Of a stretch of 39,702 nucleotides of DNA, positions 18,470-37,698 are shown piece after piece (the stretch's first letter is position 1; the number at the start of each line of letters is the position of its first letter). The translations under genes were made by a program, and so were the position numbers. Source of the stretch: Spirochaetaceae bacterium (GTDB taxonomy: Bacteria > Spirochaetota > Spirochaetia > DSM-27196 > SLAA01); contig PWQX01000228.1 in the NCBI GenBank assembly GCA_003556605.1, positions 1-39,702 on the forward strand, read 5' to 3'. The notes under the pieces are model-generated. The model was not told where the DNA came from, did not search any database, and worked only from the letters and a program-made list of their open reading frames with translations.

Positions 18470-18496
18470 CTCACCTGCTCCTTATCCGCGCCAAGC

Positions 18497-19393
18497 TCAT
18501 TCGTGCCGGAAAAACAGTTTGGCGCTCCCGATCTTGATAACGTCTTCGTACTTGAGTCGATGCTCGGCAACCGGCCGGTTGTTGACCAACACCGCCGCAG
18601 CCTGTGTGCCGGCGGCCGGCTCTATGTACAACTCGCGATCCTTATATCGCAGCCGAGCGTGGCGCTCGAGCACCTCGCGGTACCCGTTCAAGATGAAGTC
18701 CGCGTCCTGCCCGCTGCCGACAACGGTGCGGCGCTGATTCACCACAAACTCCTTTCCCTTGTAGCGACCGTTCAGGAGTCGCAGAACACCGAACGAGAGC
18801 TGCCGCTCGATCAAGGCATGGAACAACGCAATCGAAGCGCCCAACAGCATCAGACCAACGAACCGTACCAGCGGCGCTTGCTCCATGTGCACGCTACCGT
18901 ACTCTATCACTGCCCCGCCCACAAACCCCCCGAGGAAGCCGCCGGCGACGCCCATCGCCGCCTTCCGCAGCGACCATGCGCGAATGCCCTCGGTGGCGCC
19001 CACGAACAAGCCGAGCACCGCCCAGCCGAGGGCACGCGCCAACGGAAACCCAACTGCACGCAGGTCCTCTTCGCGTACCAGCAGCGACTCGCCGACCACG
19101 AAAAGAACCGCCTGGCCGACAACGAATCCGAGCACGCCGCCCAGTAGACCCAGCCCCGCTCCGGTTGCCGCTCCAATCATGATTCGGCGATCGCTTGCAG
19201 CGATGATACCCTCCGCGGTACCAAGGAACAGCCCGAGCAGCAATCCGAACACCGACCCGGATGCGACACTGAACACCAGGTAGTTCGGAAACCGGGTCTG
19301 CGACGCAACAAAGAGCTCCATAACCGGCCAGACCACCAAGCCGGCCAGCACCCCGAGTCCGCAAATGATCAATCGCTTCCAGAACAGTGTCAT
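18497..19393 (-). CDS. Polytopic membrane protein with C-terminal FHA-like domain
   Basis: A protein of 298 residues. Six or more glycine-rich membrane helices (about 8-195) include repeated units such as GLLLGLFLGTAEGII and AVLGLFVGATEGIR, which look like an internal duplication. The C-terminal 95 residues form an FHA-like domain: RRTVVGSGQDADFIL, VLERHARLRYKD, VLVNNRPV and DVIKIGSAKLFF. As in its operon neighbour, the FHA Arg (here Ser) and the Ser of SxxH (here Leu) are replaced, while the following His and the Asn pair remain. The ATG has GGAGGAG 8 nt upstream. It lies between the Ser/Thr kinase (23 bp) and the VWA-FHA protein (27 bp), so it probably recruits or scaffolds kinase signalling at the membrane. 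The transport function, if any, is unknown. Confidence 0.85.
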   Translation of the reverse strand: MTLFWKRLIICGLGVLAGLVVWPVMELFVASQTRFPNYLVFSVASGSVFGLLLGLFLGTAEGIIAASDRRIMIGAATGAGLGLLGGVLGFVVGQAVLFVVGESLLVREEDLRAVGFPLARALGWAVLGLFVGATEGIRAWSLRKAAMGVAGGFLGGFVGGAVIEYGSVHMEQAPLVRFVGLMLLGASIALFHALIERQLSFGVLRLLNGRYKGKEFVVNQRRTVVGSGQDADFILNGYREVLERHARLRYKDRELYIEPAAGTQAAAVLVNNRPVAEHRLKYEDVIKIGSAKLFFRHE

Positions 19394-19416
19394 CGTGCTT
19401 GCTCCTCCCGGCGGGG

Positions 19417-21030
19417 CTACAGCTCGGAGGCCGGCTCCAGCTCCGCGTGTAACACCAGTTGGGACTGATGAGGCTCAAACCGCAGATTGTACTCCTGCGC
19501 TTGGTAGCCGTCGGCCGAGACCCGGAATCTATAGGCCGATCCGCTCGTCAGCTGATCCTCCCCGAGCTCGTCGATGTTGCGCCATCTGCCGCGCAAGCGC
19601 ACCTCCACGCGGTAGCCGTCGAGCATACGCCTGCCGGTCTGTGCGTCGATCACCCGCACCTGCGCCCGCAACGGCGCCGGAGCAGGCGTGGCAAGCAGCA
19701 CACCTACTACCCGGCCGCCCGCCCACCGCGCCGATTCGCGCTGCTCGCGCCGGGGCGCTACATTGAACGAACGCCAGAACACCGTATCACCTGCCTCGAT
19801 CTTGGCGCGGTACCGCCCGGCGGGAAGATACACGCGTTCGCTTGCCACCACACGATAATCGGCGCTCTCCTGATCCGGACGCTCTCTGAACCCCTCCACC
19901 CGTCTGGGTTCGGTGTTGGCCTCACCGCCGGCGACGGTGAACAGGTAAGCCCGGATCACCAGATCATCAGGCACGCGCCCGTCTTTCTCAATTCGCACCG
20001 CAAGCGTCGCCGCGCCGTATTCATCGGGATTCAGTATCTCGTGGTAGTAGCCGGTGCGGTAGGCGTAACCCGCCAGACCGCCGGCCGCGGCCACCAATAC
20101 CAGCGTCGCCACCGCAAGCACGCGCTTGAACTGCGACGGGCGCACCGGTGGCTGCCAGGAACCGGCGACAAAGCGTTGTAAGCGCACTGCCGGATCCTCG
20201 GCGTGTTTGTAGGCGAGGCGCTTGTCCAGCAGCTTCAGCACCGGCTCCAGCGTCTGGTAGCGCCGTTCGCGCTTAACACGCATGCATCTGCGTATCAGCC
20301 GCGCCGAGAAGCGGCTGATTTTTGGGTTCACCTTACGAGGGCTCGTATACTTCCCGTACTGAACGAGCCGAATCGCCTCCGCGGTCATGCTGCCCGGAAA
20401 GGGCTTCTTGCCGGTCAGCATCTCGTATAGCATCACGCCTATCGAGTACACGTCGGCACGTTTGTCGACACTGTGCGTGCTGTGAAACTGCTCCGGCGGC
20501 ATATATGCCGGCGTACCGAGCGTAGTACCCTCCTTGGTGAGACTGTCGTGCACATCTTCGTGGATGCTGGCGACACCGAAATCCACCAGCTTCACCTGAC
20601 CGGTATTGGCCAAGAGGATGTTGCCCGGTTTTATGTCGCGGTGAACGACCCCGCGCTTGTGTGCGTAGGCCAAGGCGCGACAGGTGTCACGCAGAATAAG
20701 CAACGCGATTTCTTCCGGCAGATAGCGCTCGCGGCGCAGCAACTCGTCGAGCGACACACCGTCAACATACTCCAGGACAATGTGGTAGTACGCACCCTCG
20801 CGGAAGTGATCGTAAACGTCTACGATGTAGTCGCTCTTGAAATCCATCATCAGCTGCGCCTCGCGTTGAAAGCGCTTGCGAATCGCGGCGTCGCCGCGCA
20901 GTGTCAGTTTCTTGATGATGACATAACGGTCAAGAGTGGGATGCTCGGCCTTATACACCGCACCCATCCCGCCCGTTGCCACCTGCGAGACAACTTTGTA
21001 CTTGCCGATCTTACCGGGAAGACGCGCCAT
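19417..21030 (-). CDS. Transmembrane Ser/Thr protein kinase (PknB-like) with extracytoplasmic beta domain
   Basis: A protein of 537 residues. The Hanks-type kinase domain (about 10-275) is intact: P-loop ATGGMGAVY, K40 (VIIKK), catalytic loop V-H-R-D132-I-K-P-G-N137, DFG D150, and an activation segment with TKEGTTLGTPAYMPPEQF, whose threonines are likely autophosphorylation sites. A membrane helix at about 302-325 leads to roughly 210 extracytoplasmic residues of beta-rich character, resembling carboxypeptidase-regulatory or PEGA folds rather than PASTA repeats (RAQVRVIDAQTGRRML, YRFRVSADGYQAQEYNLRF). The ribosome site GGAGG lies 10 nt before the ATG. It is the second gene of the operon, with FHA proteins downstream, which makes those its obvious candidate substrates or partners. 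Confidence 0.94.
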   Translation of the reverse strand: MARLPGKIGKYKVVSQVATGGMGAVYKAEHPTLDRYVIIKKLTLRGDAAIRKRFQREAQLMMDFKSDYIVDVYDHFREGAYYHIVLEYVDGVSLDELLRRERYLPEEIALLILRDTCRALAYAHKRGVVHRDIKPGNILLANTGQVKLVDFGVASIHEDVHDSLTKEGTTLGTPAYMPPEQFHSTHSVDKRADVYSIGVMLYEMLTGKKPFPGSMTAEAIRLVQYGKYTSPRKVNPKISRFSARLIRRCMRVKRERRYQTLEPVLKLLDKRLAYKHAEDPAVRLQRFVAGSWQPPVRPSQFKRVLAVATLVLVAAAGGLAGYAYRTGYYHEILNPDEYGAATLAVRIEKDGRVPDDLVIRAYLFTVAGGEANTEPRRVEGFRERPDQESADYRVVASERVYLPAGRYRAKIEAGDTVFWRSFNVAPRREQRESARWAGGRVVGVLLATPAPAPLRAQVRVIDAQTGRRMLDGYRVEVRLRGRWRNIDELGEDQLTSGSAYRFRVSADGYQAQEYNLRFEPHQSQLVLHAELEPASEL

Positions 21031-24058: not shown

Positions 24059-26590
24059 CTAAACGGCGCGTGCGTTGGCGGCATCGCGGGCCTCTGCGAG
24101 CTGGTCGTGGTCTATCATATCGCGTTTGGCCAGCCCGTCGATCAATGCCTCCACTACGTCGGGGTCGAACTGAGTACATTTGTTTGTGAGCAGCTCCAGC
24201 AGAGCCTCCCGCTGGCTGAGCGCCGGCCGATACAGGCGGTCTTCAGTCATAGCATGCCAGGCATCGGCAACGCTGATAATCCGCGCAACGAGCGGGATCT
24301 CTTCTCCGGCCAGCCCACGAGGATATCCGGTACCGTCGTATCGCTCTTGATGCGCCAGAATGACCTCAGCTACGGGCCGAAAATGATCGAACTTCTGCAG
24401 TAGATCGGCGCCGAGCTGAGAGTGTGTCTTCATAGTCTCCCATTCGTCTTGGGTCAGTTTGCCCCGCTTGAACAGCACCCGATCCGGAATTCCGATCTTG
24501 CCGATATCGTGCAGCAGCAACGCCTCGCGAACACTGGTATCGACTTCGATACCCAGCTCCTCGGCGATAATTGTACCGTAGGTCAACACATCGATAGCGT
24601 GCCCGGCTGTATAGCGGTCCTTGAGCTCCAGAGACTGAGAAAAGCTCAGCGATAATTCGTTCATGCGCGCCTCCAGTTCTTCGGCCCGGACCGACGCTTC
24701 GTGCAGTCGCCGAGTGGCCACGAGGTTTCTGATCCGCGCATCCAGTTCGCGGATGATTATGGGTTTTGCCAAGTAGTCGTCCGCGCCGGTTTCAAGCCCT
24801 TCGATACGCGCATCGACCTCGAACTTGGCGGTCGTCAGGATCACCGGAATAGCGGCGGTGCGCTCGGCCGATTTAATCGCCGCGAGTAAGTCATAACCAT
24901 CCATACGGGGCATCATGATATCCGAAACCACCACGTCGGGAAGCTCGTGCTCCTGCTGTTCCAACCAATCCCACCCGGCTTGCCCGTCCGCCGCCACGTG
25001 TACGTAATGGCCCAGCCGCGCGAGCATGGTAGCTACATACTCGCGGAGATCGTCGTTATCCTCCACGTACAGCACCCGCACACCATCTCCGGCGTCTCCG
25101 GCTCCACTCATCTGTGCCGAAAAGCATTTTGGTGAGGACGCCGCATCTGAGAATACCATGTTGTATACCGTCATACCGGTAGCGTCATCAAACCGCCGCG
25201 GTCCGCGCCGGCGATCCTCCCCCTCGAACGGGCGGTCGGACTGACGCCGGTCACCGCTGCGACGCTCAATATCCGCGTCCGGCTCGCGTTTCTCCAGGTC
25301 TATCGGCAATCGCAAGCTGAAAGTGCTGCCGCGCCCCACGTGGCTCGCGACCGATATGGTGCCGTGCTGCATGTCCACCGCTTCCTTGACGATCGCGAGC
25401 CCAAGACCGGTGCCTTCGTAACGTCTCGTAAGCGACCCGTCCACCTGCCGGAACCGTTCGAAGATCTTCTCTAAGTGCTCCCCTGAGATTCCTTCACCGG
25501 TGTCGGCAATCGCGATCTCTATGAACTCCTCGTCGGCCGAGAGCTGCACGGTAACGCAGCCGGCCGGTGTGAACTTGATCGCGTTCCGCACGAGGTTGGT
25601 GAGGATCCGTTCAAGCTTCTCGCGGTCCAAATATACGTTCGGGACCTCATTCGCCACATGGTAGCTGAGCTTTAGACCTTTGCGGTCCGCCACATCGCTG
25701 AATGCCGAAACCACCCCTTTCACCGCTTCGAGAACACTGGTGCGAGACAGGCGCAGGCGCATTCTACCGGCTTCGAATTTGGCGAAGTCCAACATCTGGT
25801 TGATCATATCGAGCAACCGCAGCGCATTCCGGTAGACCTGAGCAACCAGCGCAAGTTGATCCGGCTCCAACTCGCCGACATCACCCTCGTACAGGCTATA
25901 GACCGGCCCGATAATCGAAGTTAACGGGGTTCTCACCTCGTGACTGATATTCGCGAAGAACTGGGACTTCAGCGTGTCGAGCTCGGTCAAGTCCTCATTT
26001 GCACGCGCCAGGCGATAGCGCGCGACAAACTCCCGCCGTCTCATTTCCGTTGAGAGGTAAGAGCTGATGATCACCAGGATGATGGTGGATACCAAGAAGA
26101 AGTTGTTGTTCACAAACGCTCGGTAGTTGGTTACGCCACCGGTCATGAACACCGGTACGAGAAAAGAAATGTATACGATAAGGCACACGATCGCCGTGCG
26201 CTTGACGTCGAGCGGCAGCATGAAGAGAAACACGATCAAGACAAGATTGATCCCGGCGTAATACGGGCTGCTATAGCCTCCGGCGAGATGCACCATCGCG
26301 ACGATCGAGGTCGCCCAAATAACGTAGGCCGCGATACCGAGCTCGCGCGCATAACGCCGTCCGAACGATGTCTCAACGGCAAAAAAAATCGCTATGGTGG
26401 TAACTACTGCAGCCGAACGGAGGGCCAAAAAGGTTGTGAACAGGCTCGGATAGGCGACATAGTCGAGCACCGAGAAGAGCGCGATCAGCACCGCAGCCGG
26501 GATGGCCGCGAAACGCACGTCGCGCGCAGCTTTTTCTATAGATTCGTTGCGAAAGCCGTCTTCAATCGCGCGTTTATCATCCCGCTGCAT
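24059..26590 (-). CDS. Multi-spanning hybrid histidine kinase-REC-HD-GYP protein
   Basis: A membrane receptor of 843 residues. Six or so helices (about 28-180) have short loops and include a GGYSSPYYAGINLVL segment. HisKA follows with H217 (FANISHEVRTPL), then an ATPase with N-box LTNLVRNAIKF, G1 ADTGEGI and G2 GTGLGLAI. An Arg-rich linker (443-467, RRSGDRRQSDRPFEGEDRRR) joins it to a REC domain (505-625; acidic E510-D511, phosphoacceptor D557, K609). The HD-GYP domain (655-830) has H664, H694-D695 (LLHDIGKIGIPD) and H747-Q-E-R-Y-D-G-T-G-Y-P757. The expected output is phospho-controlled hydrolysis of c-di-GMP. It is last in the acyl-ligase operon, 13 bp after the ACP gene. The same operon encodes three PilZ motifs, so it probably sets the c-di-GMP level they read. 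The ligand is unknown; a lipid signal made by the operon is my inference. Confidence 0.93.
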   Translation of the reverse strand: MQRDDKRAIEDGFRNESIEKAARDVRFAAIPAAVLIALFSVLDYVAYPSLFTTFLALRSAAVVTTIAIFFAVETSFGRRYARELGIAAYVIWATSIVAMVHLAGGYSSPYYAGINLVLIVFLFMLPLDVKRTAIVCLIVYISFLVPVFMTGGVTNYRAFVNNNFFLVSTIILVIISSYLSTEMRRREFVARYRLARANEDLTELDTLKSQFFANISHEVRTPLTSIIGPVYSLYEGDVGELEPDQLALVAQVYRNALRLLDMINQMLDFAKFEAGRMRLRLSRTSVLEAVKGVVSAFSDVADRKGLKLSYHVANEVPNVYLDREKLERILTNLVRNAIKFTPAGCVTVQLSADEEFIEIAIADTGEGISGEHLEKIFERFRQVDGSLTRRYEGTGLGLAIVKEAVDMQHGTISVASHVGRGSTFSLRLPIDLEKREPDADIERRSGDRRQSDRPFEGEDRRRGPRRFDDATGMTVYNMVFSDAASSPKCFSAQMSGAGDAGDGVRVLYVEDNDDLREYVATMLARLGHYVHVAADGQAGWDWLEQQEHELPDVVVSDIMMPRMDGYDLLAAIKSAERTAAIPVILTTAKFEVDARIEGLETGADDYLAKPIIIRELDARIRNLVATRRLHEASVRAEELEARMNELSLSFSQSLELKDRYTAGHAIDVLTYGTIIAEELGIEVDTSVREALLLHDIGKIGIPDRVLFKRGKLTQDEWETMKTHSQLGADLLQKFDHFRPVAEVILAHQERYDGTGYPRGLAGEEIPLVARIISVADAWHAMTEDRLYRPALSQREALLELLTNKCTQFDPDVVEALIDGLAKRDMIDHDQLAEARDAANARAV

Positions 26591-26603
26591 GCATCAGTCC
26601 ACT

Positions 26604-26846
26604 TCAACGCTTAGTAGGCGCTTCAAAGTACTCGATAAACTCGCCGATGGTCTCCAGCTCGGCGCAGGCTTCTTCATCTACCTCAACACCAAGTTTCTGC
26701 TCGCAAGCGGCAAGCAGCTGAAGACCGAGCAAGCTGTCGATCCCCAGCTCTTCCCGAACCCGCACATCGTCATGCAGTTGCTCTACCCGCACTTTGCAGA
26801 CCTCGGAGAATACCTTACGAATCGTCTCGCGTACGTTCTCTTGCAC
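26604..26846 (-). CDS. Acyl carrier protein
   Basis: A four-helix carrier of 80 residues from GTG 26846. The phosphopantetheine site is S38 in ELGIDSLLGLQLL, with the usual acidic helix 2 surroundings. The helix 1 region ETIRKVFSEVCKVRVEQL and the C-terminal ETIGEFIEYF fit the family. It is 21 bp downstream of the AMP-ligase-fold gene and 13 bp upstream of the receptor kinase. This is a dedicated pathway carrier rather than housekeeping AcpP, which usually lies in the fab cluster. It probably receives or presents the acyl chain handled by the ligase and the LuxD-like domain. Confidence 0.93.
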   Translation of the reverse strand: MQENVRETIRKVFSEVCKVRVEQLHDDVRVREELGIDSLLGLQLLAACEQKLGVEVDEEACAELETIGEFIEYFEAPTKR

Positions 26847-26867
26847 TTGTCTTATACCCTACATCAC

Positions 26868-28310
26868 TTATCGTCCTGTAAGCTCAATACCTTGGGGAAT
26901 TTTGTACCCCGCTAACCGTTCGCCGAGATACTCCCGCAGCTGGCCGGCAGTGGGTATTGCGGCTTTCGCACTGCCGCTGTCCGTTGTTACCACAGCCCGC
27001 AGTCTGTTGCCGTCGAGCGCCACCTTGACCTCATATACTCTCGGGTGACGGAGAATTGCCGTGCGCACTTCCGCGAGGTCAACCATAAGCCCATTAACCT
27101 TACGCGTAGCTTTTCGCTCGCGCGCGAAGCACAGGTGGCCGTCAGCCAGGCGAAAGACATCTCCGGTGTGAAACCAGCCTTCCGGGCTCAGCGCAGCGTC
27201 GGTCTCCGCCGGTCTACGGTAGTACCCGCGACTAACCCCGGCGCCTCGTATCAGCAGCTCGCCGTCCTCTTCTGCAAGCTTGACCTCCAGACCCGAAACC
27301 GGCGGCCCGTCCGTTCCTGAACGCGCCCGGCCGCGCAGATTCAAACTCGCCGGCGTGCACTCGGTTAGTCCGTAGCCGTTCAAGACCTCATGAGCAAGGG
27401 TGGCACGGAACCTCTGATACTGCTCGACGGTTAAACGACTGCCGCCGGTGACCAGAAGCTCGACACCTATCCCTGATGTATCGGACGGAGGAAACCGAGC
27501 CAACAGTTCAGCGATCTCGGGAACAACAGGCAAGAAATCAACCGCCTCGGCCGTAATGATACGGTGCAGACGCCGTGGATGCATGCTGTGACACAACACT
27601 GCAGTGATGTCGTACAGCAGAGGCAGAAACACACACGCAACCAGGCCGTAGATGTGTGCCATCGGCAGTACCACCAGCATCGTGCGACACCGCGCCGCAT
27701 CAATGCAGCCGGCCAAGACTTCCGCGCCGTGGCGATACTGCGCCTGTGAAACCACCGCGCCGAGCGGATAGCCGTGTCCCCGGTAGGTGAAGTTTATCGA
27801 GGCCGTGCCGTCGGCTACCGCCGTTGTACCCGCAGGCGGCGGTCCCAAGGGTGAGGCGGGCGAGGCAGGATTCGGTCGATACGAGGACCATGAATCCTCC
27901 GACCGTCCAAGTTTGTTACCGTCGCGAATGAGTACGATTCGGTCTCCGCAGTAGGGTGCAAGGTGTTCGCGATGAGCGGACTCGGTAATCAGCGCGTGCG
28001 GCTGCAAATCCCGGAAAATCGCGGATAGCTCCAGTGCGCGGTAGTCGAGCTTCAGCGGAGCAAAGACTGTGTCACGCGAGAGCAGCGCGATAATCGTAGC
28101 GGCGTAAAACGCGGAATTATGCAAAAACACGGCGACGCGCATCCCCGGCTCAACGCCGCTCTCATCGAGGCTGCACCCCACGCGATGTACGAGCCGCACG
28201 AACTCGGCGCCGGTCCAGACGCTGCGGTGCTCTTTCGCACCGTACTCCACGAAAACAGGTGCGGCCTCGCGAGCAGCCGCGCGTGCAACCAACTCACCCG
28301 CCAAGCTCAC
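26868..28310 (-). CDS. AMP-ligase-fold (acyl-CoA/ACP synthetase-like) protein with altered catalytic motifs
   Basis: An ANL-superfamily protein of 480 residues. Recognisable: the HIYG region (LPMAHIYGLVACVF), A5 (NGYGLTECTPASLN), A7 (GWFHTGDVF), the A8 hinge (ERKATRKVNGLMVDLAEV) and the start of the C-terminal subdomain (LAGYKIPQGIEL). Two things are odd. The phosphate-binding A3 loop, normally like TSGTTGxPKG, reads FTYRGHGYPLG (174-184), without the Lys. The protein ends at ELTGR, before the A10 loop that carries the adenylation lysine (GKxxR). The GTG start overlaps the fusion gene's stop (GTGA), so the two are translationally coupled, and the carrier protein follows. It may activate a fatty or hydroxy acid onto the ACP, or act as an acyl-binding or transfer partner. 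Fold certain, activity uncertain. Confidence 0.85.
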   Translation of the reverse strand: MSLAGELVARAAAREAAPVFVEYGAKEHRSVWTGAEFVRLVHRVGCSLDESGVEPGMRVAVFLHNSAFYAATIIALLSRDTVFAPLKLDYRALELSAIFRDLQPHALITESAHREHLAPYCGDRIVLIRDGNKLGRSEDSWSSYRPNPASPASPLGPPPAGTTAVADGTASINFTYRGHGYPLGAVVSQAQYRHGAEVLAGCIDAARCRTMLVVLPMAHIYGLVACVFLPLLYDITAVLCHSMHPRRLHRIITAEAVDFLPVVPEIAELLARFPPSDTSGIGVELLVTGGSRLTVEQYQRFRATLAHEVLNGYGLTECTPASLNLRGRARSGTDGPPVSGLEVKLAEEDGELLIRGAGVSRGYYRRPAETDAALSPEGWFHTGDVFRLADGHLCFARERKATRKVNGLMVDLAEVRTAILRHPRVYEVKVALDGNRLRAVVTTDSGSAKAAIPTAGQLREYLGERLAGYKIPQGIELTGR

Positions 28311-31300
28311 GGCTTCACCCCGACAACCACCACTGCCTGAGGCGGTTCACCCATCGCAGCTTCACTGTGCTCGATCACGAAGCCGGCATTCTGCAACAGC
28401 GCAGCCAGTTCCTCAGCGGTATAGAAACGAAAATATCCCTCCTCTTCGAGCTCGAATAGACCGGCGGCCTCGTTCAGCATCTCGCGAGCATGAGCGAGAT
28501 CATCCTCGGTCCCGCCGTTGCGTTCGCTGTACCGCGCGGTCAGCTCGGCAATGTATTCGGTGAAAATGGTCGAAATATCGCTGTCAGGCCGCATACTGGA
28601 AATCACGATTCGCCCGCCCGGTGCGAGCAGACGCCAAAGCTCTTCAACCGCATACTGGGGATTGAAGAGGTAGGAGATGAAAAGGCTCGCAACCACCACG
28701 TCGAACACGCCGTGCGGAAACAGCGGTTCCGCGAACACCGGGCCGCGGCCGAATCGCAGCGAGTGAAACCGCAAGTTCTCGGCCCGTAAGCTGCTGAGCT
28801 CCGGTTCTCTGAAATGCTGCGCGGGTGTGCCGGCGTTACTCTCGCTCTGCTGCGCGCCGAGAAAGTCCTCGGGATTCACGCGCCCGCGTACCACCCGCGC
28901 CGCGAGGTTGAGATCGGCGATTACTGCGCCCGCGTCGGCGCCGCAGCGATCAAGCACCTTGGAGCGCAGCATCTCATCAAGCGGCTCACCGCGCACCGCA
29001 GCCTCGAGCTCAGGCCGCGCGCAGGCAAGCAGGCAGTCAAGGTGCACGTTCGTCAAGCCCTCAACCTTTCCTCGAAGGTACTCGGGATCAACCGTCGCGT
29101 TATCGCGCATGCGGATAAACGGAACGAAACGGCTCGGTTCGAAGTCGCCAACCTCAAAGTGTAGACTACACGGTAAGCACGAGCAGTCCTCGAGCACCGC
29201 ATCCGCCTTTTCCCGCGCACTTTCAAGCGCTGCGGGAACAAGATCAAGCGCCGTAACTGCCACCGGCGGGTTTGGGCTGCGTTGCACGAGGTCGGTCAGC
29301 AATCGTTCGAGGAACAGTCCTGTTCCACAGCCGATGTCGGCAACGCGCGCCCCTGCCGTCACCGCCGCGAGCTCTACCTCGCGATCAAGAAAGCGCCGAA
29401 ACGGTCCAATATTACGATATACGTCGTAGCCCCCACCGCTATCGCCGGCCCCGATGAGATAGCGCTCCCAATAAGTGCCGGGATCAAGCACGTGCTTTTG
29501 CTCAAGCCGCTCGCGCTCACGGGTTACCAGCTCCAGCAGTTCCTCCCGATTCGGGTGCACCGCTTCAACCGTTTCCCGGTGAAGACCGGCAAAAATGCGT
29601 GTCGCAATCAGGGAGAAGGTGGCAATCGCGTCATCACTTGTGCGTAGGTTATGACCGGCGGGAATGCAGATTACCTCGCGCTGCGCCGGGGCTGCAATGC
29701 TCATAATATCGACCACGTCATCGGCGGTTACCCATTTGTCGTGCTCCCCGTAGATCCACAACACCGGCACGCGAACATCCGCCATATCGGCGCGCGCGTC
29801 CGAAACAGTGGCGTACCCATGCTCCACCAAGTCCTCGGCAATCACGTCAAGGTTCACCAAATGACCCAAGAGACCACAGATACCCATGGGGACACCGAGC
29901 TTGAAGTTACCAACCGGGTCTACACCGCCGAGGGTGTTTACAAGCGCCGGTTGCCCGGCGGCAACCCCCATCACACTCACCCAACCCACGATGCGCTCGG
30001 CGTTCCGCGGATCCAAGGCAACCTTGCGACCCTCTAGCGCCGACATGCTGAAGGTGACCGGCACTACCCCGAGTGCTTGGAACAGATCAGTGCTACCGGC
30101 AAACTCTATGGTGGTCTGAAGATCACGTAAGCCCTGCGAAATGCTGAAGCGAAGCATATCGCAGCCGCGTTCCTCCTCGTTCACGCTCGAGTAGCTTTCA
30201 CCGGGCCGGTCGATGCCGTCGTATCGAATGGTGACCAGGTCTCGACCGTAGCGGGCAAACGTCGCGGTGAGTACCGCCGCGAGCGGCGCCAGCGCCTCCT
30301 TCTTCTTACCAAACGCCGGCGGAAGAATCACTACCGGCGCCGAGCGTCCGAATCCGGTAGCGTTGATAAGCGCTTTGATCGGCCGACCTTGGCGGTCGTA
30401 GTACGTCACCAGACGGGCAACCGCGGCGTCGCCCAACGGAGCGCTCGCCCCCGCCTGCTTCAAGAGCTGCCATTCTCTTTCACTTACGCTGCGAATCATT
30501 GGATTGCCGCGTTCAACACCGGACTCTATTCCGATGATGGCTTGCTTGCCCTCCGGGCCGGCCTGTATTGTTGCGTGCCGGAGCTCGCCCCTCCGTCTTC
30601 CGGCACCGGTGTCGAAGCGCAGCCCCGCACCGATCTCCAGAAACTCGTGCACGCCTTCGGCTACGTGAAACACGCACCGCAAGCCTCTTGTGCTGCTGTC
30701 CAGCAACCGGCCGATGAACTGCCGCCCGGGAAGCCGGTCAAGCTCAACGCTTACCCGCGTTCCGCTACCGGCCGGACGATCGCGATGAGCGCCGCGTTTC
30801 TCAGAGCGGTAGAGCTGTTCCGGCATAACCAACTCAACGGTATCCTCCCTCACCGCCGAGACCACCGTCTTGAAAAAGAAGCTTCCGCCGTCGACACTCA
30901 AGCCGCCGTACAGGCGAACCCCCTGATCAAGCGGGTCACGCTCGGAAAAGGCGTCACGCGGAATCATCAACGCAGGCCGCGCCGAAAGCAACTCGGTATG
31001 CACCACCCGCTGGTCGCCCTCCAACATGAGTTGTAGGCAACGGCCGAGTACGCAGGCGCTGCGCAGCAAGGCAGCGGCGTCCTCCGTTGCTACCGAGTAG
31101 TCGGCCTCATACTCGGCACGATATACTATGCGCTCGAATATCGCGCGTAGAGCGGCTCCGGAGCTCTGCGCTACCACGAAGTTGCGCAGTCGCGCCGCGT
31201 CTATTTCATTGACGCGGGATATGTTGAGGCCGGCGGTCGAATACTCCGCGAATCGTTCGCTGTGCACGTGCACCACCTGCGCGCCCACCACAATTGAGCG

Positions 31301-31813
31301 CTGGTCGCCCGGGAGCCGGAACCGTAGGTCCAGCGTCTCGTCAACTCGCAGCGTTCCCGCGAACCGGAGCTGCAGACCCTCGGTGGAGATGTTATCGATA
31401 CTCCGGACCCGTAGATCGCCCCGCCGGCATTCTACCGGGGTAATACTACAGTCCACCCGAGGCAGTTTGCGTGCATCGAAGGCGCCCGCATGCTCGCCGT
31501 GCCGCACGAACGCCGCTCGGATAAACTCAGTGACGAACTCGCGCTCCCGGTCGGTTCGGAAATTGAACTCCAGCGCGGTCTGATTACCCTCTCCTTGCCC
31601 GGCATCGCCGGTACGGCGAACCGCGCGCACCGGTATCTGAAGCTGCTGTTCACTTCCGGGAAGGTTGAAGCTAACCGACTGCGGCTTGGCCTTCTTCGGA
31701 AGCTCAATCCGCATTCCCGACCTGCTGATATCAATGCTGCGCGCTCGCAGTTGCCCATTTTCTGTCGCGCATTCTACCCAACCTCGGTGTCGAACTCGTG
31801 AATGCCGGCGCAT
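28307..31813 (-). CDS. Triple-PilZ / LuxD-like acyltransferase / SAM methyltransferase fusion
   Basis: A cytoplasmic protein of 1168 residues from ATG 31813 (GGGGGA nine nt upstream). An in-frame TTG at 31864 coincides with the -35 box and is rejected as start. There are three PilZ motif pairs: RRHSR (2-6) with DISRSG (28-33), RKLPR (115-119) with NISTEG (141-146), RGAHR (340-344) with DSSTRG (372-377). About 490-745 is an alpha/beta hydrolase resembling LuxD, the acyl transferase of bacterial luminescence: TFSMS with S589, EHDKWV with D692 and GHNL with H721 form the triad. About 780-1168 is a class I methyltransferase (DIGCGTG, 826-832; ALDLVP; FDVVVASLF; LLAPGGRIVISS) interrupted by a Cys-containing insert. 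It heads the four-gene operon. Inferred role: c-di-GMP-controlled release or transfer of an acyl group coupled to methylation. Confidence 0.87.
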   Translation of the reverse strand: MRRHSRVRHRGWVECATENGQLRARSIDISRSGMRIELPKKAKPQSVSFNLPGSEQQLQIPVRAVRRTGDAGQGEGNQTALEFNFRTDREREFVTEFIRAAFVRHGEHAGAFDARKLPRVDCSITPVECRRGDLRVRSIDNISTEGLQLRFAGTLRVDETLDLRFRLPGDQRSIVVGAQVVHVHSERFAEYSTAGLNISRVNEIDAARLRNFVVAQSSGAALRAIFERIVYRAEYEADYSVATEDAAALLRSACVLGRCLQLMLEGDQRVVHTELLSARPALMIPRDAFSERDPLDQGVRLYGGLSVDGGSFFFKTVVSAVREDTVELVMPEQLYRSEKRGAHRDRPAGSGTRVSVELDRLPGRQFIGRLLDSSTRGLRCVFHVAEGVHEFLEIGAGLRFDTGAGRRRGELRHATIQAGPEGKQAIIGIESGVERGNPMIRSVSEREWQLLKQAGASAPLGDAAVARLVTYYDRQGRPIKALINATGFGRSAPVVILPPAFGKKKEALAPLAAVLTATFARYGRDLVTIRYDGIDRPGESYSSVNEEERGCDMLRFSISQGLRDLQTTIEFAGSTDLFQALGVVPVTFSMSALEGRKVALDPRNAERIVGWVSVMGVAAGQPALVNTLGGVDPVGNFKLGVPMGICGLLGHLVNLDVIAEDLVEHGYATVSDARADMADVRVPVLWIYGEHDKWVTADDVVDIMSIAAPAQREVICIPAGHNLRTSDDAIATFSLIATRIFAGLHRETVEAVHPNREELLELVTRERERLEQKHVLDPGTYWERYLIGAGDSGGGYDVYRNIGPFRRFLDREVELAAVTAGARVADIGCGTGLFLERLLTDLVQRSPNPPVAVTALDLVPAALESAREKADAVLEDCSCLPCSLHFEVGDFEPSRFVPFIRMRDNATVDPEYLRGKVEGLTNVHLDCLLACARPELEAAVRGEPLDEMLRSKVLDRCGADAGAVIADLNLAARVVRGRVNPEDFLGAQQSESNAGTPAQHFREPELSSLRAENLRFHSLRFGRGPVFAEPLFPHGVFDVVVASLFISYLFNPQYAVEELWRLLAPGGRIVISSMRPDSDISTIFTEYIAELTARYSERNGGTEDDLAHAREMLNEAAGLFELEEEGYFRFYTAEELAALLQNAGFVIEHSEAAMGEPPQAVVVVGVKP

Positions 31814-31836
31814 AAAGGCTGTTCCCCCATACTCTG

Positions 31837-31864
31837 ATTGTATGCTTTCGACCGCTTGGGTCAA
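31837..31864 (-). promoter_or_regulatory. Promoter of the PilZ/LuxD-like/AMP-ligase/ACP/HD-GYP operon
   Basis: Read leftward: TTGACC (31864-31859), a 16-bp spacer and TACAAT (31842-31837). Initiation at about 31830 gives a short leader containing GGGGGA before the ATG at 31813. Both hexamers and the spacing equal those at 5278-5305. Confidence 0.65.
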
Positions 31865-31897: not shown

Positions 31898-31923
31898 AGA
31901 GGCCGCTCCTGTGAGCGGCCTCT
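31898..31923 (-). terminator. Perfect 11-bp GC-rich hairpin between the periplasmic-protein gene and the PilZ operon
   Basis: AGAGGCCGCTC (31898-31908), loop CTGT, GAGCGGCCTCT (31913-31923). It lies about 40 bp past the stop of the 191-residue periplasmic protein and upstream of the PilZ operon promoter. No U-tract follows on either strand, so it may be a U-less terminator or an mRNA 3'-end stabiliser. Confidence 0.55.
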
Positions 31924-32729: not shown

Positions 32730-34001
32730 CTACTGCGGTAGCACAATCGAGACCGTTGTTCCTTCGGCCGCAGTGCTCGCAACCTCGATTCTGCCGTTGT
32801 GCAGCAGGACGATACGCCGGGCAATCGTGAGACCTAATCCCGAGCCTTCAGTGTTGCGCGCGTACTCACCGCGATACAGCCGCTCGAATAGATGATCGAG
32901 CTCTGCAGGCGGAATCGGCGGGCCTTCGTTCGTCACCGCTAGCTGCAGCCCCCTTTCCGGCAGATTCGTGACCAGCAGGCGTACCCGCCCGCCGGTCGGC
33001 GCATGCCGGACGGCATTGCTCACGACGTTCGAGACCGCGCGATACAAGAGCGCTTCATCGGCACTAATCGCTTCCGTTCGCAGCTCAGGCTCCCAGCGGA
33101 TCCCTTTCTTTGCGATCTCGTGGCCGAAACGCTGCCTGAGCGTCTGCACAAAACCCTCGGCCGAGAACGTGGTTACGTCTATCCGCGCGTCCGGCTGCTC
33201 GAGCTGCATAAGCTCCTCGAGATCGCCAATCAGGCGCTCCACCCGGCCGAGCTCGGAGAGCGTCGTCTTAACCGTGCCGGCGTCGGCGCGATATACGCCG
33301 TCGACGATGGCCTCCAGTTGAGCGCGAATCGACGCAATTGGTGTGCGCAGGTCGTGGGTAACGTCCTGCGCCCATTGGGCGCGCAGGCGGCGTTCGTCGG
33401 ACAGACGCACCGCGAGCGTATTCGCCGCACGTGCGATTCGCACCACTTCCTCGGCACCCTCTTCCGGGATCGGCGCCGCCGGCGCACCGTACGCGATGGA
33501 GTCTATGCCTGCAGCGACCCGCGCCGCAGGGCTCGTGAGCGAGCGCGCGAAGCCCCAGGCCATCACCACCGCGGCACCGAACGCAGCCAGCGCGCCCGCG
33601 GCGGCAGCACGGACCAACGAGTGAGCCAGGGCGCGATTGGCCGCGTCGTTGCGAAAGGCGGTTGTACCAACCGAGAAGTATCCCAGCAGGGTGCCGTTTT
33701 CGTGCACCGGAATACGATCCTCATCACCTTCCCGCCGGCGGCCGACACCACGATTGGAGGCAACCAAAGTACCGCGGCGGTCATAAACAAACACCGGAAC
33801 ATCCTGCGGCACCGTTTGTTCAGCCTCGTCGGCGCCTCTGAGAATCCGGCGTGCCGATTCTTCGATCATGAGCACACGACGGGCGCTCCAAGTTGAAAGT
33901 GAATGGTTATAACCGGCGATCAGGGCACCGGCGAGCACCACCAGCAGCACGGCGAAACTGGCGAGGAACGCAATGAAGGTACGGCGAAACAGGCTACGCA
34001 T
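32730..34001 (-). CDS. OmpR/EnvZ-class sensor histidine kinase
   Basis: A membrane kinase of 423 residues from ATG 34001, which overlaps the regulator's TAG by 8 bp with GGGAA upstream; a TTG 42 bases earlier is less likely. TM1 is at about 8-30 and TM2 at about 133-152. Between them lies a periplasmic loop of about 100 residues (VYDRRGTLVASNRGVG, then VHENGTLLGYFSVG), short and typical of envelope-stress sensors. HAMP follows, then HisKA with H216 (QDVTHDLRTPIAS) and an ATPase with N-box VVSNAVRHAP and G2 GSGLGLTIARRI. It is coupled to the regulator and faces an efflux operon, so it likely senses a toxic peptide, antibiotic or envelope damage. The Arg-rich, acidic loop GRRREGDEDR could bind metal or a cationic peptide; that is a guess. 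Confidence 0.93.
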   Translation of the reverse strand: MRSLFRRTFIAFLASFAVLLVVLAGALIAGYNHSLSTWSARRVLMIEESARRILRGADEAEQTVPQDVPVFVYDRRGTLVASNRGVGRRREGDEDRIPVHENGTLLGYFSVGTTAFRNDAANRALAHSLVRAAAAGALAAFGAAVVMAWGFARSLTSPAARVAAGIDSIAYGAPAAPIPEEGAEEVVRIARAANTLAVRLSDERRLRAQWAQDVTHDLRTPIASIRAQLEAIVDGVYRADAGTVKTTLSELGRVERLIGDLEELMQLEQPDARIDVTTFSAEGFVQTLRQRFGHEIAKKGIRWEPELRTEAISADEALLYRAVSNVVSNAVRHAPTGGRVRLLVTNLPERGLQLAVTNEGPPIPPAELDHLFERLYRGEYARNTEGSGLGLTIARRIVLLHNGRIEVASTAAEGTTVSIVLPQ

Positions 34002-34713
34002 TGGTCTTTTCCCGCTCTTCGCGACCAACGAACCGGTAGCCAAAGCCCCGCACAGTATCTATCCAGGGGACCTTGCCGAGCTTGGTACGGATGTTCTTAA
34101 TGTGCGTATCGATCGTGCGCTCGGACCCCTCTGCGAGATAATCGAGACAGACCCCGAGCAAGCGCTCACGCGAAACGACGATTGCGGCGTTCTCGGAAAG
34201 ATGATTGAGTATCTTCCACTCTGCAGCGGTCAGCGTGACCTCGGCACCGTTGTGCCGGCAGATGTGACCGGCTTCGTACAACTCAAGCTCATGCTCGGCA
34301 CCGTTGTGCTCAAGCCTCCATCGCCGCAGAGCGGCACTGTCGGTGTGTGTTGCCTGCGACCGGCGCAACACCGCCTGCACACGCAGCATCAGCTCTTTGT
34401 TTGAGAAAGGCTTCACCACGTAGTCGTCTCCGCCCACCTCGAACCCCGTGATTCGGTCGGACTCGGAAATACGCGCGGTCAAGAAGATGATCGGGGCGGA
34501 AGAAAACACGCGCAGCGTTCTAGCGAACAGGAACCCATCCCCGTCGGGCAGCATTACGTCGAGGATAATTACATCGGGGGGCTGCATTCGCACCGCTTCC
34601 TTGAGCCCGGAAAGCCGCGCAAACGCCACAACGTCATGCTGCTCGAGCCGCAAATACGATACAATCGTCTCGCGGAGACCTTCGTTGTCCTCTACCACAA
34701 ACACGCGCGCCAT
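33994..34713 (-). CDS. OmpR/PhoB-family response regulator
   Basis: A cytoplasmic transcription factor of 239 residues from ATG 34713, preceded by GGAGGAG; a GTG ten codons earlier overlaps that box and is rejected. REC domain: acidic E8-D9, phosphoacceptor D52 in IILDVMLPDGDG, a T/S in FLTARIS and K in VVKPFSNKEL. The winged helix is at about 130-235: VTLTAAEWKILNHLSENA, then the recognition helix near ERTIDTHIKNIRTKLG, then TVRGFGYRFV. It forms an overlapping pair with the kinase. Likely targets are its own operon, the divergent TolC/MFP/ABC genes and the periplasmic protein. All of these have TGTGAAG-type direct repeats with 11-bp phasing nearby. Confidence 0.94.
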   Translation of the reverse strand: MARVFVVEDNEGLRETIVSYLRLEQHDVVAFARLSGLKEAVRMQPPDVIILDVMLPDGDGFLFARTLRVFSSAPIIFLTARISESDRITGFEVGGDDYVVKPFSNKELMLRVQAVLRRSQATHTDSAALRRWRLEHNGAEHELELYEAGHICRHNGAEVTLTAAEWKILNHLSENAAIVVSRERLLGVCLDYLAEGSERTIDTHIKNIRTKLGKVPWIDTVRGFGYRFVGREEREKTNA

Positions 34714-34736
34714 TACTCCTCCAACTATACTACGAC

Positions 34737-34798
34737 TCTTCACATAGTGTCGTGCCGGTGTGGAAACGGTAGGGAGCGCGTGTGAAGATCATGTGAAG
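34737..34798. promoter_or_regulatory. Candidate response-regulator sites upstream of the regulator-kinase operon
   Basis: Plus-strand TGTGAAG occurs at 34781-34787 and 34792-34798 (11-bp phasing), and the same heptamer lies on the minus strand at 34743-34737, close to the regulator start. This spacing fits OmpR-family dimers and suggests autoregulation. Confidence 0.5.
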
Positions 34799-34981: not shown

Positions 34982-36439
34982 ATGAAGACGCCGACGTTCT
35001 ACAGAAGCCGCGCAAGACGCGCGCTCCAACTGGCCTCAGCGCTAATCCTCGTCGGCTTGGGACCCAGCGTTCCGGCCGAGGCGCCGGGCAACTTAAGCGC
35101 CGTACTGAAGACCGCCGCAACCGGCGCCGATGTTGTCGCCGCGCGGGCTGCATACGAGACAGCCCGGGCCGAGGCGGTGGCGCTGGGATACCGTGGTGAT
35201 CTTTCGTTGTCGCTGATCCCCTCTTGGGAGACGTCGTGGGTGCCCGATGACGACCGTGATCCGTATCACGAGCTCAGCACCACCTTTGAAGCTACAATAC
35301 CCACCGGCCTCAACGCTGCCGAGCGATTGCGAATGGAGCAAGCCCTGAGCCGAACCGCCGGCGCCGAAGCCGAGCTTCGAGAGGCGCTGCTTGACACCGT
35401 AGTATCGCTGCATTCCGCCTACGTCGCCGCCTATCTCAGACACGCCGAGCTCGCGGTGCTCGAGCACGAGCGAAAAGCCGTCCGCATCCGCATAAACGCC
35501 AAAGAAGCGCGCTACACCAGCGGAGAAGTCTCGCTGATCGATCTGCTCGCGATCCGCGAGGAGCTGCGCGAGGCAGAACAGGCCGTGGAAGACGGAGTAA
35601 TGGAGGCCGAGCTCGCCCTGCTCGAGCTAATGCTGCAAAGCGGTACCGAGATTCCGCGGCGTTGGGAACCGGGTGCGCTGTTGGAAGCGCTTCCGCCGCC
35701 TGCCTCGCCGACCGAGGACCTCGCCGGCCTGACCGTTCCGGAGCTCGAAAGTGCAATCGCCAGGATAGGCGTCACACACCCCCGTATTGTCAAGCAGGCG
35801 GCGGTTCTCGACGCAGCCGAAGCCGGAACTCGTGTGCCGCGCGACCCGCTCTTGTCATCCATCCGGGTGGCGTACTCGGGTGAGGACGGGCATTCGGGGG
35901 CCGTCTCATACTCGTTTCGAGCGCCTTCGGTTTCACTGGCATACACGCCGCCGGCTTTCGACATCGGAAGCGAACCGGAATCCGGATCTAACCGAAACCG
36001 TTCGGATGAGAACGCCATCAGCTTCTCCGCGGTGTTTTCGCTGAGCCTAGGGCGCGAACGCACGCACGCGGAAGATGTCGCGCGTACCCGCGCCGAATAC
36101 GAAGCCGCTCGCCTCGATGCACTGCAGCGTGCGGTCGAGGCGGAGGTCCATTCACGGCACCGCCGAATATCGGCTGCCGAGGCCAAGCTTGAGCTGGCTC
36201 GCCAAGCCGAGGAACGTGCCGAGGCGTCACACGCGGCGGCCCTAGCACGAGAGAACATAGGCGCTGCCGAGCCCGGCGACCTCGAAGCCGCTGCGGCTGC
36301 CCTCGCGCGGGCGCGCTTTGCGCGTACCGAGGCCGAGATATCCTTGGCCGGCGAAAGACTGAGATACGTTGCCGCAGCGCATACGCCGGAAGCGCTCCCT
36401 GAAACGCTGCGCGACACACTATTCGGAGGTTCCCTATGA
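34982..36439 (+). CDS. TolC-like outer membrane efflux protein
   Basis: A protein of 485 residues with an N-terminal export signal (about 8-33). It shows the two outer-membrane-efflux repeats: long amphipathic Ala/Glu/Arg-rich helices (AAYLRHAELAVLEHERKAVR, INAKEARYTSGEVSLIDLLA in the first; AAEAKLELARQAEERAEASH in the second), with strand segments between (TTFEATIPTGL, ISFSAVFSLSLG). The GEVSLIDLLAIREEL stretch is a common TolC signature. It likely forms a trimeric tunnel through the outer membrane for the downstream adaptor and ABC genes, to which it is joined by a 4-bp overlap (ATGA). The ATG lacks a Shine-Dalgarno sequence; a TTGACA at 34957-34962 is too close to act as its -35. Confidence 0.92.
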   Translation: MKTPTFYRSRARRALQLASALILVGLGPSVPAEAPGNLSAVLKTAATGADVVAARAAYETARAEAVALGYRGDLSLSLIPSWETSWVPDDDRDPYHELSTTFEATIPTGLNAAERLRMEQALSRTAGAEAELREALLDTVVSLHSAYVAAYLRHAELAVLEHERKAVRIRINAKEARYTSGEVSLIDLLAIREELREAEQAVEDGVMEAELALLELMLQSGTEIPRRWEPGALLEALPPPASPTEDLAGLTVPELESAIARIGVTHPRIVKQAAVLDAAEAGTRVPRDPLLSSIRVAYSGEDGHSGAVSYSFRAPSVSLAYTPPAFDIGSEPESGSNRNRSDENAISFSAVFSLSLGRERTHAEDVARTRAEYEAARLDALQRAVEAEVHSRHRRISAAEAKLELARQAEERAEASHAAALARENIGAAEPGDLEAAAAALARARFARTEAEISLAGERLRYVAAAHTPEALPETLRDTLFGGSL

Positions 36440-37698
36440 ACACAAATACACGAACCGGAAAGCCGACCCGACGGAGAAACCGCAAACGCTTCGGCATGTT
36501 GCTGGCCGCAGCGCTTCTCTCAGCGGGCGGGTGGTTCGCATACCACCAGCCGTTCGCGGTCGAGGGCCCGGAGTCGGATGAGAAGAAGATTGAGACTGCC
36601 GAAGCCGTTGAAGGCGCCGTGGCAGTGACCGTAGAGAGTCCGGCTGTTGCCGAGCCCTACCGCGTGCGCACGTTGCGGGCCGCCGTGGGCGGTACAGTTG
36701 CCTGGGCCGCACAAGAAGGCGATGAAGTCGCTGCCGGCCAACCGCTTGTGCGGTTCGCCGCAGCGGAGTTCGAACGCAGCGTAGCGCTCGCGCGAATTAG
36801 CCTCACCGACGCCGAGATCAAACGTGACCGCGCGAGCGCCGACCTCGCCAAAGCCGAGCGAGTGCTGCGCGAGCGTGAGGCGCTACTGGTGACCGGCGCG
36901 GTGTCTCGCGAGCAGGTGCTGAGCGCGCGCGAGCAGGCGACAGAAGCCCAATATGCGCTCCGTTCGGCCGAGCTGGCCGTAGAGCGCGCTCGCATTGAGC
37001 TTGAGACCGCCGAAGACGAGCTCGACGGCCAGATACAGCGCGCACCTTTTGACGGCACCGTGTTGAGGTTAGAGATGAACGAGGGCGACCGGGTCGGACA
37101 GAACTCAACACTGCTCAGTTTTGGGGACCTCTCGCGCCTGCGGTTTCGCGCTGAGATCGACGAGTACGACATCGGGCGGGTAGCGGTGGGTCTGCCGGTG
37201 AGCATTCGTAGCGACCTGCTCGGTGACGACAATCTGCGCGCTCGGGTTGAGAGCATCAGTCCGGAGGCTGAGATTGTAAACAACATCCCGGTTTTTCGCG
37301 TCACTGCCACCGCAGATAACCCTGAGGGGCGACTGAAACCCGGAATGAGTACCGATCTCGTGGTGCAGCTTGCGCGCGACAGCGGCATTGTGATCCCGGC
37401 CGGCGCGGTATCCACGGTGCGCACCCGCAGCTACGTTGAAGTCGTTAAAGCCGACGAAACCGAGACGCGCCGTGTAGAGACCGGCGCTAACGACGGCGCC
37501 AATATCGTAGTCCTTGACGGGCTCCAGGCCGGCGAGCTCGTGAAACTGCCGGACGGCGCCGGCGTTCTGCCCGGCGCGGCGCCGGCAGAGGCATCCCAGC
37601 AGCCGGAGGCTATTCCTATGTCGGTTCCCGGTAGCCCGGCCGGCGGAGGCACCGGCGGAGGCGCAGGCTCCGGCGGCGGAGGCGGAGGCACGCGATGA
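36436..37698 (+). CDS. Membrane fusion (periplasmic adaptor) protein, MacA/HlyD type
   Basis: A protein of 420 residues. A positively charged N-terminus and one membrane anchor (about 20-37) precede a lipoyl half (TVAWAAQEGDEVAAGQPLVRF), an alpha-hairpin (about 110-190, highly charged coiled coil) and the second lipoyl half (IQRAPFDGTVLRLEMNEGD). Beta-barrel (IGRVAVGLPVSIRSDL) and membrane-proximal domains follow. The last 40 residues are Pro/Ala and then almost pure Gly (GGGTGGGAGSGGGGGG), an unusual flexible tail that MacA proteins usually lack. It starts inside the TolC-like stop and ends inside the ATPase start, each by 4 bp, so the whole pump is translationally coupled. Confidence 0.93.
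   Translation: MNTNTRTGKPTRRRNRKRFGMLLAAALLSAGGWFAYHQPFAVEGPESDEKKIETAEAVEGAVAVTVESPAVAEPYRVRTLRAAVGGTVAWAAQEGDEVAAGQPLVRFAAAEFERSVALARISLTDAEIKRDRASADLAKAERVLREREALLVTGAVSREQVLSAREQATEAQYALRSAELAVERARIELETAEDELDGQIQRAPFDGTVLRLEMNEGDRVGQNSTLLSFGDLSRLRFRAEIDEYDIGRVAVGLPVSIRSDLLGDDNLRARVESISPEAEIVNNIPVFRVTATADNPEGRLKPGMSTDLVVQLARDSGIVIPAGAVSTVRTRSYVEVVKADETETRRVETGANDGANIVVLDGLQAGELVKLPDGAGVLPGAAPAEASQQPEAIPMSVPGSPAGGGTGGGAGSGGGGGGTR

Follow-up and report, generated by a model that had tools for sequence, protein, structure and literature searches.

The 39,702-nucleotide stretch of DNA analyzed here (hereafter the window) comes from a Spirochaetaceae bacterium (contig PWQX01000228.1 of assembly GCA_003556605.1) and carries an operon of four minus-strand genes, designated A, B, C and D, which spans positions 24059–31813 and in which all frames are open (Table 1). 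Genes A and B overlap by 4 bp, and gaps of 21 bp and 13 bp separate B from C and C from D, respectively. This layout agrees with a preliminary description made from the sequence alone, in which the operon had been proposed to make, sense and gate by cyclic di-GMP (c-di-GMP) a methylated acyl signal.

Table 1. Coordinates of the operon genes, predicted domains and upstream features in the window.
Feature	Positions	Strand	Protein residues	Characteristics
Gene A	28307–31813	-	1168 aa	PilZ-PilZ-(YcgR-like)PilZ-LuxD-like-methyltransferase; open frame reaches 31864
PilZ domain 1	31514–31813	-	A 1–100	RxxxR and DxSxxG
PilZ domain 2	31109–31471	-	A 115–235	RxxxR and NxSxxG
Beta-rich region ending in third PilZ	30434–31108	-	A 236–460	R340/R344 and D372/G377 invariant
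LuxD-like acyl-ACP thioesterase/transferase domain (ACP, acyl carrier protein)	29468–30427	-	A 463–782	Triad S589, D692, H721
Class I S-adenosylmethionine (SAM) methyltransferase	28310–29500	-	A 772–1168	Insert of ~100 residues; outside PhcB-like family
Gene B	26868–28310	-	480 aa	AMP-ligase (ANL) fold
Gene C	26604–26846	-	80 aa	Acyl carrier protein
Gene D	24059–26590	-	843 aa	Six-helix sensor-HisKA-HATPase-REC-HD-GYP
Six-helix sensor domain	25991–26590	-	D 1–200	GGYxSPYYAG motif
Histidine kinase core	25301–25969	-	D 208–430	H217 invariant
Receiver (REC) domain	24728–25075	-	D 506–621	D557 and K609 invariant
HD-GYP c-di-GMP phosphodiesterase domain (predicted)	24155–24631	-	D 654–812	HDxGK and GYP residues invariant
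Promoter-like site	31837–31864	-		TTGACC-N16-TACAAT; 10/12 matches; sole strong site upstream of A
Perfect 11-bp inverted repeat	31898–31923	-		AGAGGCCGCTC-ACAG-GAGCGGCCTCT; between upstream gene and operon, just upstream of promoter; no T-run

Three promoter-like sites were found in the region against 0.2 expected, and the only strong one upstream of A is that listed in Table 1. The extent of gene A, which had been read from TTG 31864, was revised, because this triplet forms the −35 element of the promoter-like site; the sequence places the start of A at ATG 31813. This codon is preceded by GGGGGA, and the A orthologs begin with MRRH or MRRN, as does the protein read from ATG 31813. Some hits to A were reported to contain TGA codons; the frames of the orthologs used in this analysis are open when read from their own start codons. 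The inverted repeat further upstream is possibly the terminator of the upstream gene or a leader hairpin; no terminator-like site was scored in the upstream region of the operon. Directly downstream of the operon, no further regulator gene is present.

Protein A combines three types of domains in one chain. Pfam searches returned PilZ over two stretches (5.6e-19) and several methyltransferase models. While the third PilZ domain, which a putative YcgR-like N-domain seems to precede, falls below the Pfam cut-offs in the window copy, the RxxxR and [D/N]xSxxG motifs are present in all three PilZ domains of the window protein and in nearly all Spirochaetota relatives. The middle part of the protein resembles LuxD, an acyl-ACP thioesterase/transferase whose Vibrio harveyi representative (PDB 1tht) is a myristoyl-ACP thioesterase. 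Its Ser-Asp-His triad is invariant in all aligned rows, with the nucleophile elbow SMSA at S589. An AlphaFold model of this domain, built from 17 sequences (mean predicted local distance difference test score, pLDDT, 79), has 1tht as its top PDB fold match (TM-score 0.79–0.80 on the target, E 8.4e-12). Similarly, 1tht was the sole match of the domain profile against the PDB (1.7e-5), in an alignment spanning the nucleophile and Asp regions. With the LuxD family model PF02273, the window copy scores 18.2 bits, below the cut-off of 20.3, which is passed by three A orthologs (24.2, 26.9 and 25.4 bits). The modeled fold thus identifies the middle domain as a true LuxD relative. It is also the most conserved part of A, with a mean column identity of 62%; in the methyltransferase this value is 48%, and in the region of the third PilZ domain it is 33%.

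The closest folds of the C-terminal methyltransferase include phospholipid, quinone and natural-product N-, O- and C-methyltransferases. Assignment of a substrate from this fold was attempted and abandoned, as many small-molecule methyltransferases score alike. The fusion of the LuxD-like and methyltransferase domains in one chain is retained throughout the A family. The architecture given for A in the preliminary description, triple PilZ-LuxD-methyltransferase, is thus upheld by the Pfam matches, by PF02273 in the orthologs and by the 1tht fold match. No paper in the literature searched names LuxD and PilZ together, and a search combining PilZ and PhcB returned nothing relevant by title or abstract.

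Protein B belongs to the AMP-binding family (PF00501, 6.8e-49), in line with the fold initially described. What had escaped notice is the loss of catalytic motifs: in an alignment of 14 family members, TYRGxGxxxGA stands in place of the phosphate-binding loop, and the proteins stop short of the C-terminal A10 lysine. Judged by its motifs, B is therefore no standard adenylating enzyme. It may instead be a binding or transfer partner of C. The other AMP-ligase motifs are kept in B (26868–28310) and its orthologs. The identity of C as an ACP was confirmed by the PP-binding model (2.2e-13) and by the attachment motif GIDSL, with the attachment residue at Ser38 and G35, I36, D37 and S38 invariant.

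In protein D, Pfam identified HisKA, HATPase, REC and HD-GYP (HD_5) domains in one chain, and hydropathy alone indicated six hydrophobic segments before the kinase. Together with the invariant catalytic residues, which in the HD-GYP domain are H694, D695, G697, K698, G755, Y756 and P757, these data corroborate the six-helix histidine kinase-REC-HD-GYP protein described earlier. The established activity of the HD-GYP family is to change c-di-GMP, and the genome of the window contains 13 GGDEF hits, to make this nucleotide. A match of the sensor to Pfam MASE8 was below threshold (E 0.0078) and was not used; LvrA, the best NCBIfam match of D, reflects mainly the kinase core.

The gene set was followed through relatives, the named ones being metagenome-assembled genomes of Spirochaetales/Spirochaetaceae from sediment. 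Among 46 genomes of the order of the window, the LuxD domain is present in 18 and a strong match to the D sensor in 18, with 16 in common. In the two genomes that have A but not D, the assemblies are fragmentary and the contigs break off within the cluster; the two that have D but not A belong to a sister genus, g5 (G011 and G044), considered below. Every contiguous Spirochaetota locus that was read has the order A-B-C-D or A-B-C-radical SAM-D, and the cluster also occurs in a distant Spirochaetota class. The fifth gene, found between C and D in most families and also in this distant class, encodes a B12-binding radical SAM enzyme whose nearest families include HpnJ, HpnR and ladderane-type enzymes. 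It does not occur in the genus of the window, nor in G012 or G042, and is treated as lost from the genome of the window because only a distant paralog was found there (4.6e-70 vs 1e-228 to 1e-231 for true orthologs of the same order). Nearly all of the Aminicenantia-type loci of Acidobacteriota that were read lack B and C and have A either overlapping D or directly next to it; in G534, from the Aminicenantes phylum, the cluster is split between two contigs, one carrying A-B-C-radical SAM and the other radical SAM-D. In the 7.5-Mb genome G629 of the same phylum, a PilZ-LuxD protein stands at a contig start (L073), with no adjacent D on the stretch read.

Since the whole cluster is kept in relatives (A identity 33–60%), the gene set is, on comparative grounds, not due to chance. 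According to the preliminary description, a lack of linkage of the four genes in relatives would have refuted its proposal; they are kept together, and what it had overlooked is the fifth ancestral gene and the A-D core of Acidobacteriota. An operon of convenience, in which unrelated regulatory and metabolic genes happen to stand side by side, would fit the unrelated genes flanking it in the window and the lack of conserved gene order outside the operon in all but close relatives. Yet conservation already contradicts this explanation, which we consider highly improbable: the order is preserved, with overlaps, over two phyla and several families, and B is absent where A is absent in our sample. 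The same data bear on the possibility that A and D signal together, but that B, C and the radical SAM enzyme form a separate acyl-loading line making the real ligand (e.g., a branched or hydroxylated chain), the methyltransferase acting on a headgroup or a protein. B is found only in genomes with A (20 genomes checked), the radical SAM gene is kept in most families, and the range of folds closest to the methyltransferase is compatible with such targets. However, Aminicenantia retain A and D in the absence of B, C and the radical SAM gene, which are therefore dispensable for the core; the fusion of the LuxD-like and methyltransferase domains, which is kept throughout, also speaks against a separate line, and we regard it as improbable.

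The decisive further evidence came from the sensor of D, whose profile was searched irrespective of neighboring genes in 393 Spirochaetota genomes and 396 genomes of the Aminicenantes phylum. Fifty-eight of the resulting regions were read; the selection excluded part of the weakest matches and the majority of the A loci known before. In 21 of these 58 loci, the sensor kinase gene has a neighbor −39 to 300 bp away that encodes a methyltransferase of a second, PhcB-like family (upstream and on the same strand in 16), and these paired loci span seven Spirochaetota families and four Acidobacteriota genomes. A is the neighbor of the sensor kinase in three further loci. As background, the profile of the second methyltransferase gave 0 matches when run against another 536 kb from these groups. 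Protein A lies outside this family: searched against A with hmmsearch, the PhcB-like profile gave an E-value of 0.015 (Z=1000) with weak SAM-fold stretches only. Two unrelated enzymes therefore share one receptor type. In five loci from several Spirochaetota families (L182, L186, L187, L188 and L190), one PhcB-like methyltransferase gene is followed by two kinases, both with a D-type sensor, which are possibly one-signal, two-receptor arrays.

In genus g5, the D ortholog (51–54% identity) is divergent to a gene for a protein with PilZ-like domains, called by eye, and a second-family methyltransferase; A is absent. Since the g5 D nests within the clade of A-linked D proteins (support 87/93), A has probably been exchanged there for another methyltransferase. 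The g5 methyltransferase has no NCBIfam match, only sub-threshold matches to generic Pfam methyltransferases and no PDB match; it shares 30% identity over 304 residues (E 1e-36) with a related methyltransferase encoded by a Paraburkholderia graminis plasmid. In the plasmid operon, the order is methyltransferase-kinase-response regulator-response regulator, as in phcBSRQ (PMC8578825), whose signal, methyl 3-hydroxymyristate or palmitate, is produced by PhcB and sensed by PhcS (PMC8578825, PMC10653808). The D-sensor profile matches the whole membrane part of the plasmid kinase (84.6 bits; hhalign probability 99, E 7e-18), in which the phosphorylated histidine is residue 233, and residue 230 in PhcS (PMC11960443). 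A PhcB-like methyltransferase with its own D-type sensor kinase is also encoded on the Pseudanabaena plasmid NC_019690.1. Also on this plasmid (159929–160825; L112, 25930–26826), a kinase-less protein consisting mainly of a D-type sensor adjoins an alpha/beta hydrolase gene.

Collectively, these data point to a circuit for a lipid signal, of the same (methyl-ester) type as Phc but assembled from other components, with A as synthase, D as receptor and c-di-GMP as feedback, a reading which we hold to be probable, with appreciable room for doubt. The LuxD-like serine domain of A would take an acyl chain from the ACP C, and the methyltransferase domain would methylate the released chain. Given the LuxD chemistry, the linked ACP and the fused methyltransferase, this release and methylation would be the simplest activity of A, with a fatty-acid methyl ester or a relative as its simplest outcome. 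In most relatives the B12 radical SAM enzyme would further decorate the chain, a step lost in the genus of the window. The product of A would be sensed by the six-helix sensor of D, which would control the kinase; the phosphate would then reach the REC domain, and c-di-GMP would be changed by the HD-GYP domain joined to it. c-di-GMP may in turn gate A through its three PilZ domains, which would read it, so that synthesis would be tied to the output of D in a feedback loop. The pairing of sensor and methyltransferase makes the product of A, or a relative, the most likely ligand of D; D is best read as the receptor of a methylated acyl product and A as a replacement synthase. An acyl or methyl-ester synthase paired with a membrane receptor had been suggested earlier, and the recurrent pairing of D-type sensors with methyltransferases and the partner exchange in g5 lend support to this part of the proposal. 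Sequences and their comparison establish the domains, the catalytic residues, the gene order, the linkage of A and D, the pairing of sensor and methyltransferase and the partner exchange; substrate, product and ligand, like the sign of the feedback, export and signaling between cells, are what we infer from them.

Several points weigh against such a circuit. In 34 of the 58 sensor loci no such enzyme lies nearby; the sensor therefore also occurs alone, and its family also acts elsewhere or has other ligands. Support for the node of the partner exchange is moderate, and the label PhcB-like derives from the arrangement of the operon and from homology with the genes of Paraburkholderia, not with PhcB and PhcS themselves. 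The methyltransferase of A falls outside the second family and its fold matches are silent on the substrate, the lost motifs of B blur the supposed acyl supply, and no transcriptional output is tied to the system. Finally, a methyltransferase beside a kinase could be a regulated enzyme rather than a signal synthase. Alternatively, A might supply the cell itself with a secondary metabolite or a modified membrane lipid, D sensing the environment or the membrane, setting local c-di-GMP and switching A through PilZ, with the product as output and not as the signal of D. An enzyme with PilZ domains beside a kinase with HD-GYP does fit one-way control from sensor to enzyme. Also in favor of this alternative are the Aminicenantia loci, in which A bears an N-terminal receiver-like domain and the kinase gene is adjacent, and the proximity of the radical SAM enzyme to families including lipid-modifying HpnJ, HpnR and ladderane-type enzymes. 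However, the same sensor type accompanies an unrelated methyltransferase in many taxa, sometimes with two sensor kinases per methyltransferase, and D swaps its enzyme; these observations are easier to account for by a shared class of ligands than by a shared cue from the environment. Moreover, no HD-GYP gene was found in the partner loci of the second methyltransferase, and control of the enzyme by c-di-GMP breakdown is therefore not the shared reason for the pairing. We consider production for own use unlikely, if clearly the most serious of the alternatives.

The novelty of the operon, as judged from its genes, would lie in joining methyltransferase and sensor-kinase signaling to an unrelated synthase of LuxD type and to an output through c-di-GMP. 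A broader proposal, to which we give somewhat less than even credence, is that A represents a class of c-di-GMP-gated autoinducer synthases, converting acyl-ACP into a methyl ester and forming a two-protein loop with a c-di-GMP-destroying receptor. In this proposal, the sensor would define a large, undescribed family of methylated-lipid receptors in Spirochaetota, Acidobacteriota, Cyanobacteriota and Pseudomonadota, served by at least two unrelated and interchangeable synthase types. To our knowledge, methyl-ester-type communication is so far known mainly from a plant pathogen. If the circuit exists, such signaling, rather than being special to Ralstonia and related bacteria, would be a bacterial language of wide distribution, little-studied phyla included, in which synthases can be exchanged; environmental spirochaetes would gain a candidate lipid autoinducer system, and signal synthesis would be physically linked to c-di-GMP within one enzyme. 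It would also provide a large set of candidate receptors whose ligands are directly testable, because each adjoins its presumed synthase.

The remainder of the window contains other gene groups. At 32730–34743 and 34982–39697, a two-component pair is divergent from an outer-membrane efflux (OEP) gene, followed by further plus-strand genes; the synteny of this region with the operon is kept in G001. At 17012–21030, a Ser/Thr protein kinase gene lies near that of a VWA protein, which shows a weak match of FHA-like type (Yop-YscD_cpl), and a potassium uptake pair of the TrkA-TrkH type shows a 4-bp overlap (7711–10568).

Compared with known systems, CqsA/CqsS and LqsA/LqsS share with this operon the linkage of a synthase gene to that of a membrane sensor kinase. 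Both systems use alpha-hydroxyketones, and LqsA is a pyridoxal-phosphate enzyme (PMC10653808, PMC3376566). In contrast, no pyridoxal-phosphate synthase gene is present here. Of the two models put forward in the preliminary description, CqsA/CqsS is a weaker analogue than PhcB/PhcS. The fifth gene of relatives shares its domain layout with the B12-binding radical SAM enzymes HpnJ, HpnR and BchE, but scores far below the cut-off of each family and is absent from the operon and genus of the window. LuxD of luminous Vibrio (1tht) shares with A the fold and the position of the Ser-Asp-His triad, whereas here the domain is fused to PilZ and methyltransferase domains, without LuxC/LuxE or luciferase genes.

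For the receptor half, the closest layout, overlooked earlier, is that of RpfC-RpfG. In the Rpf/diffusible signal factor (DSF) system, a fatty-acid-derived signal is made from acyl-ACP and perceived by a membrane hybrid kinase, with a REC-HD-GYP output lowering c-di-GMP. D resembles RpfC and RpfG in one chain, a hybrid kinase with REC-HD-GYP, while RpfC and RpfG are separate proteins; the synthase here has PilZ domains and a methyltransferase, and no RpfF-type crotonase domain was found in the four operon proteins with Pfam or NCBIfam. The Phc system of Ralstonia solanacearum (PhcB, PhcS, PhcR and PhcQ) differs in that the synthase here is an unrelated PilZ-LuxD-methyltransferase fusion accompanied by an ACP and an AMP-ligase-like protein, and in that receiver and HD-GYP domains are fused to the kinase, with no separate PhcR/PhcQ-type regulators in the operon. 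Nevertheless, in both cases a methyltransferase gene is directly linked to that of a membrane sensor kinase, the six-helix sensor of D is homologous to that of the kinase in the phcBSRQ-like Paraburkholderia operon, and a methylated acyl product would be the simplest reading of the operon described here.

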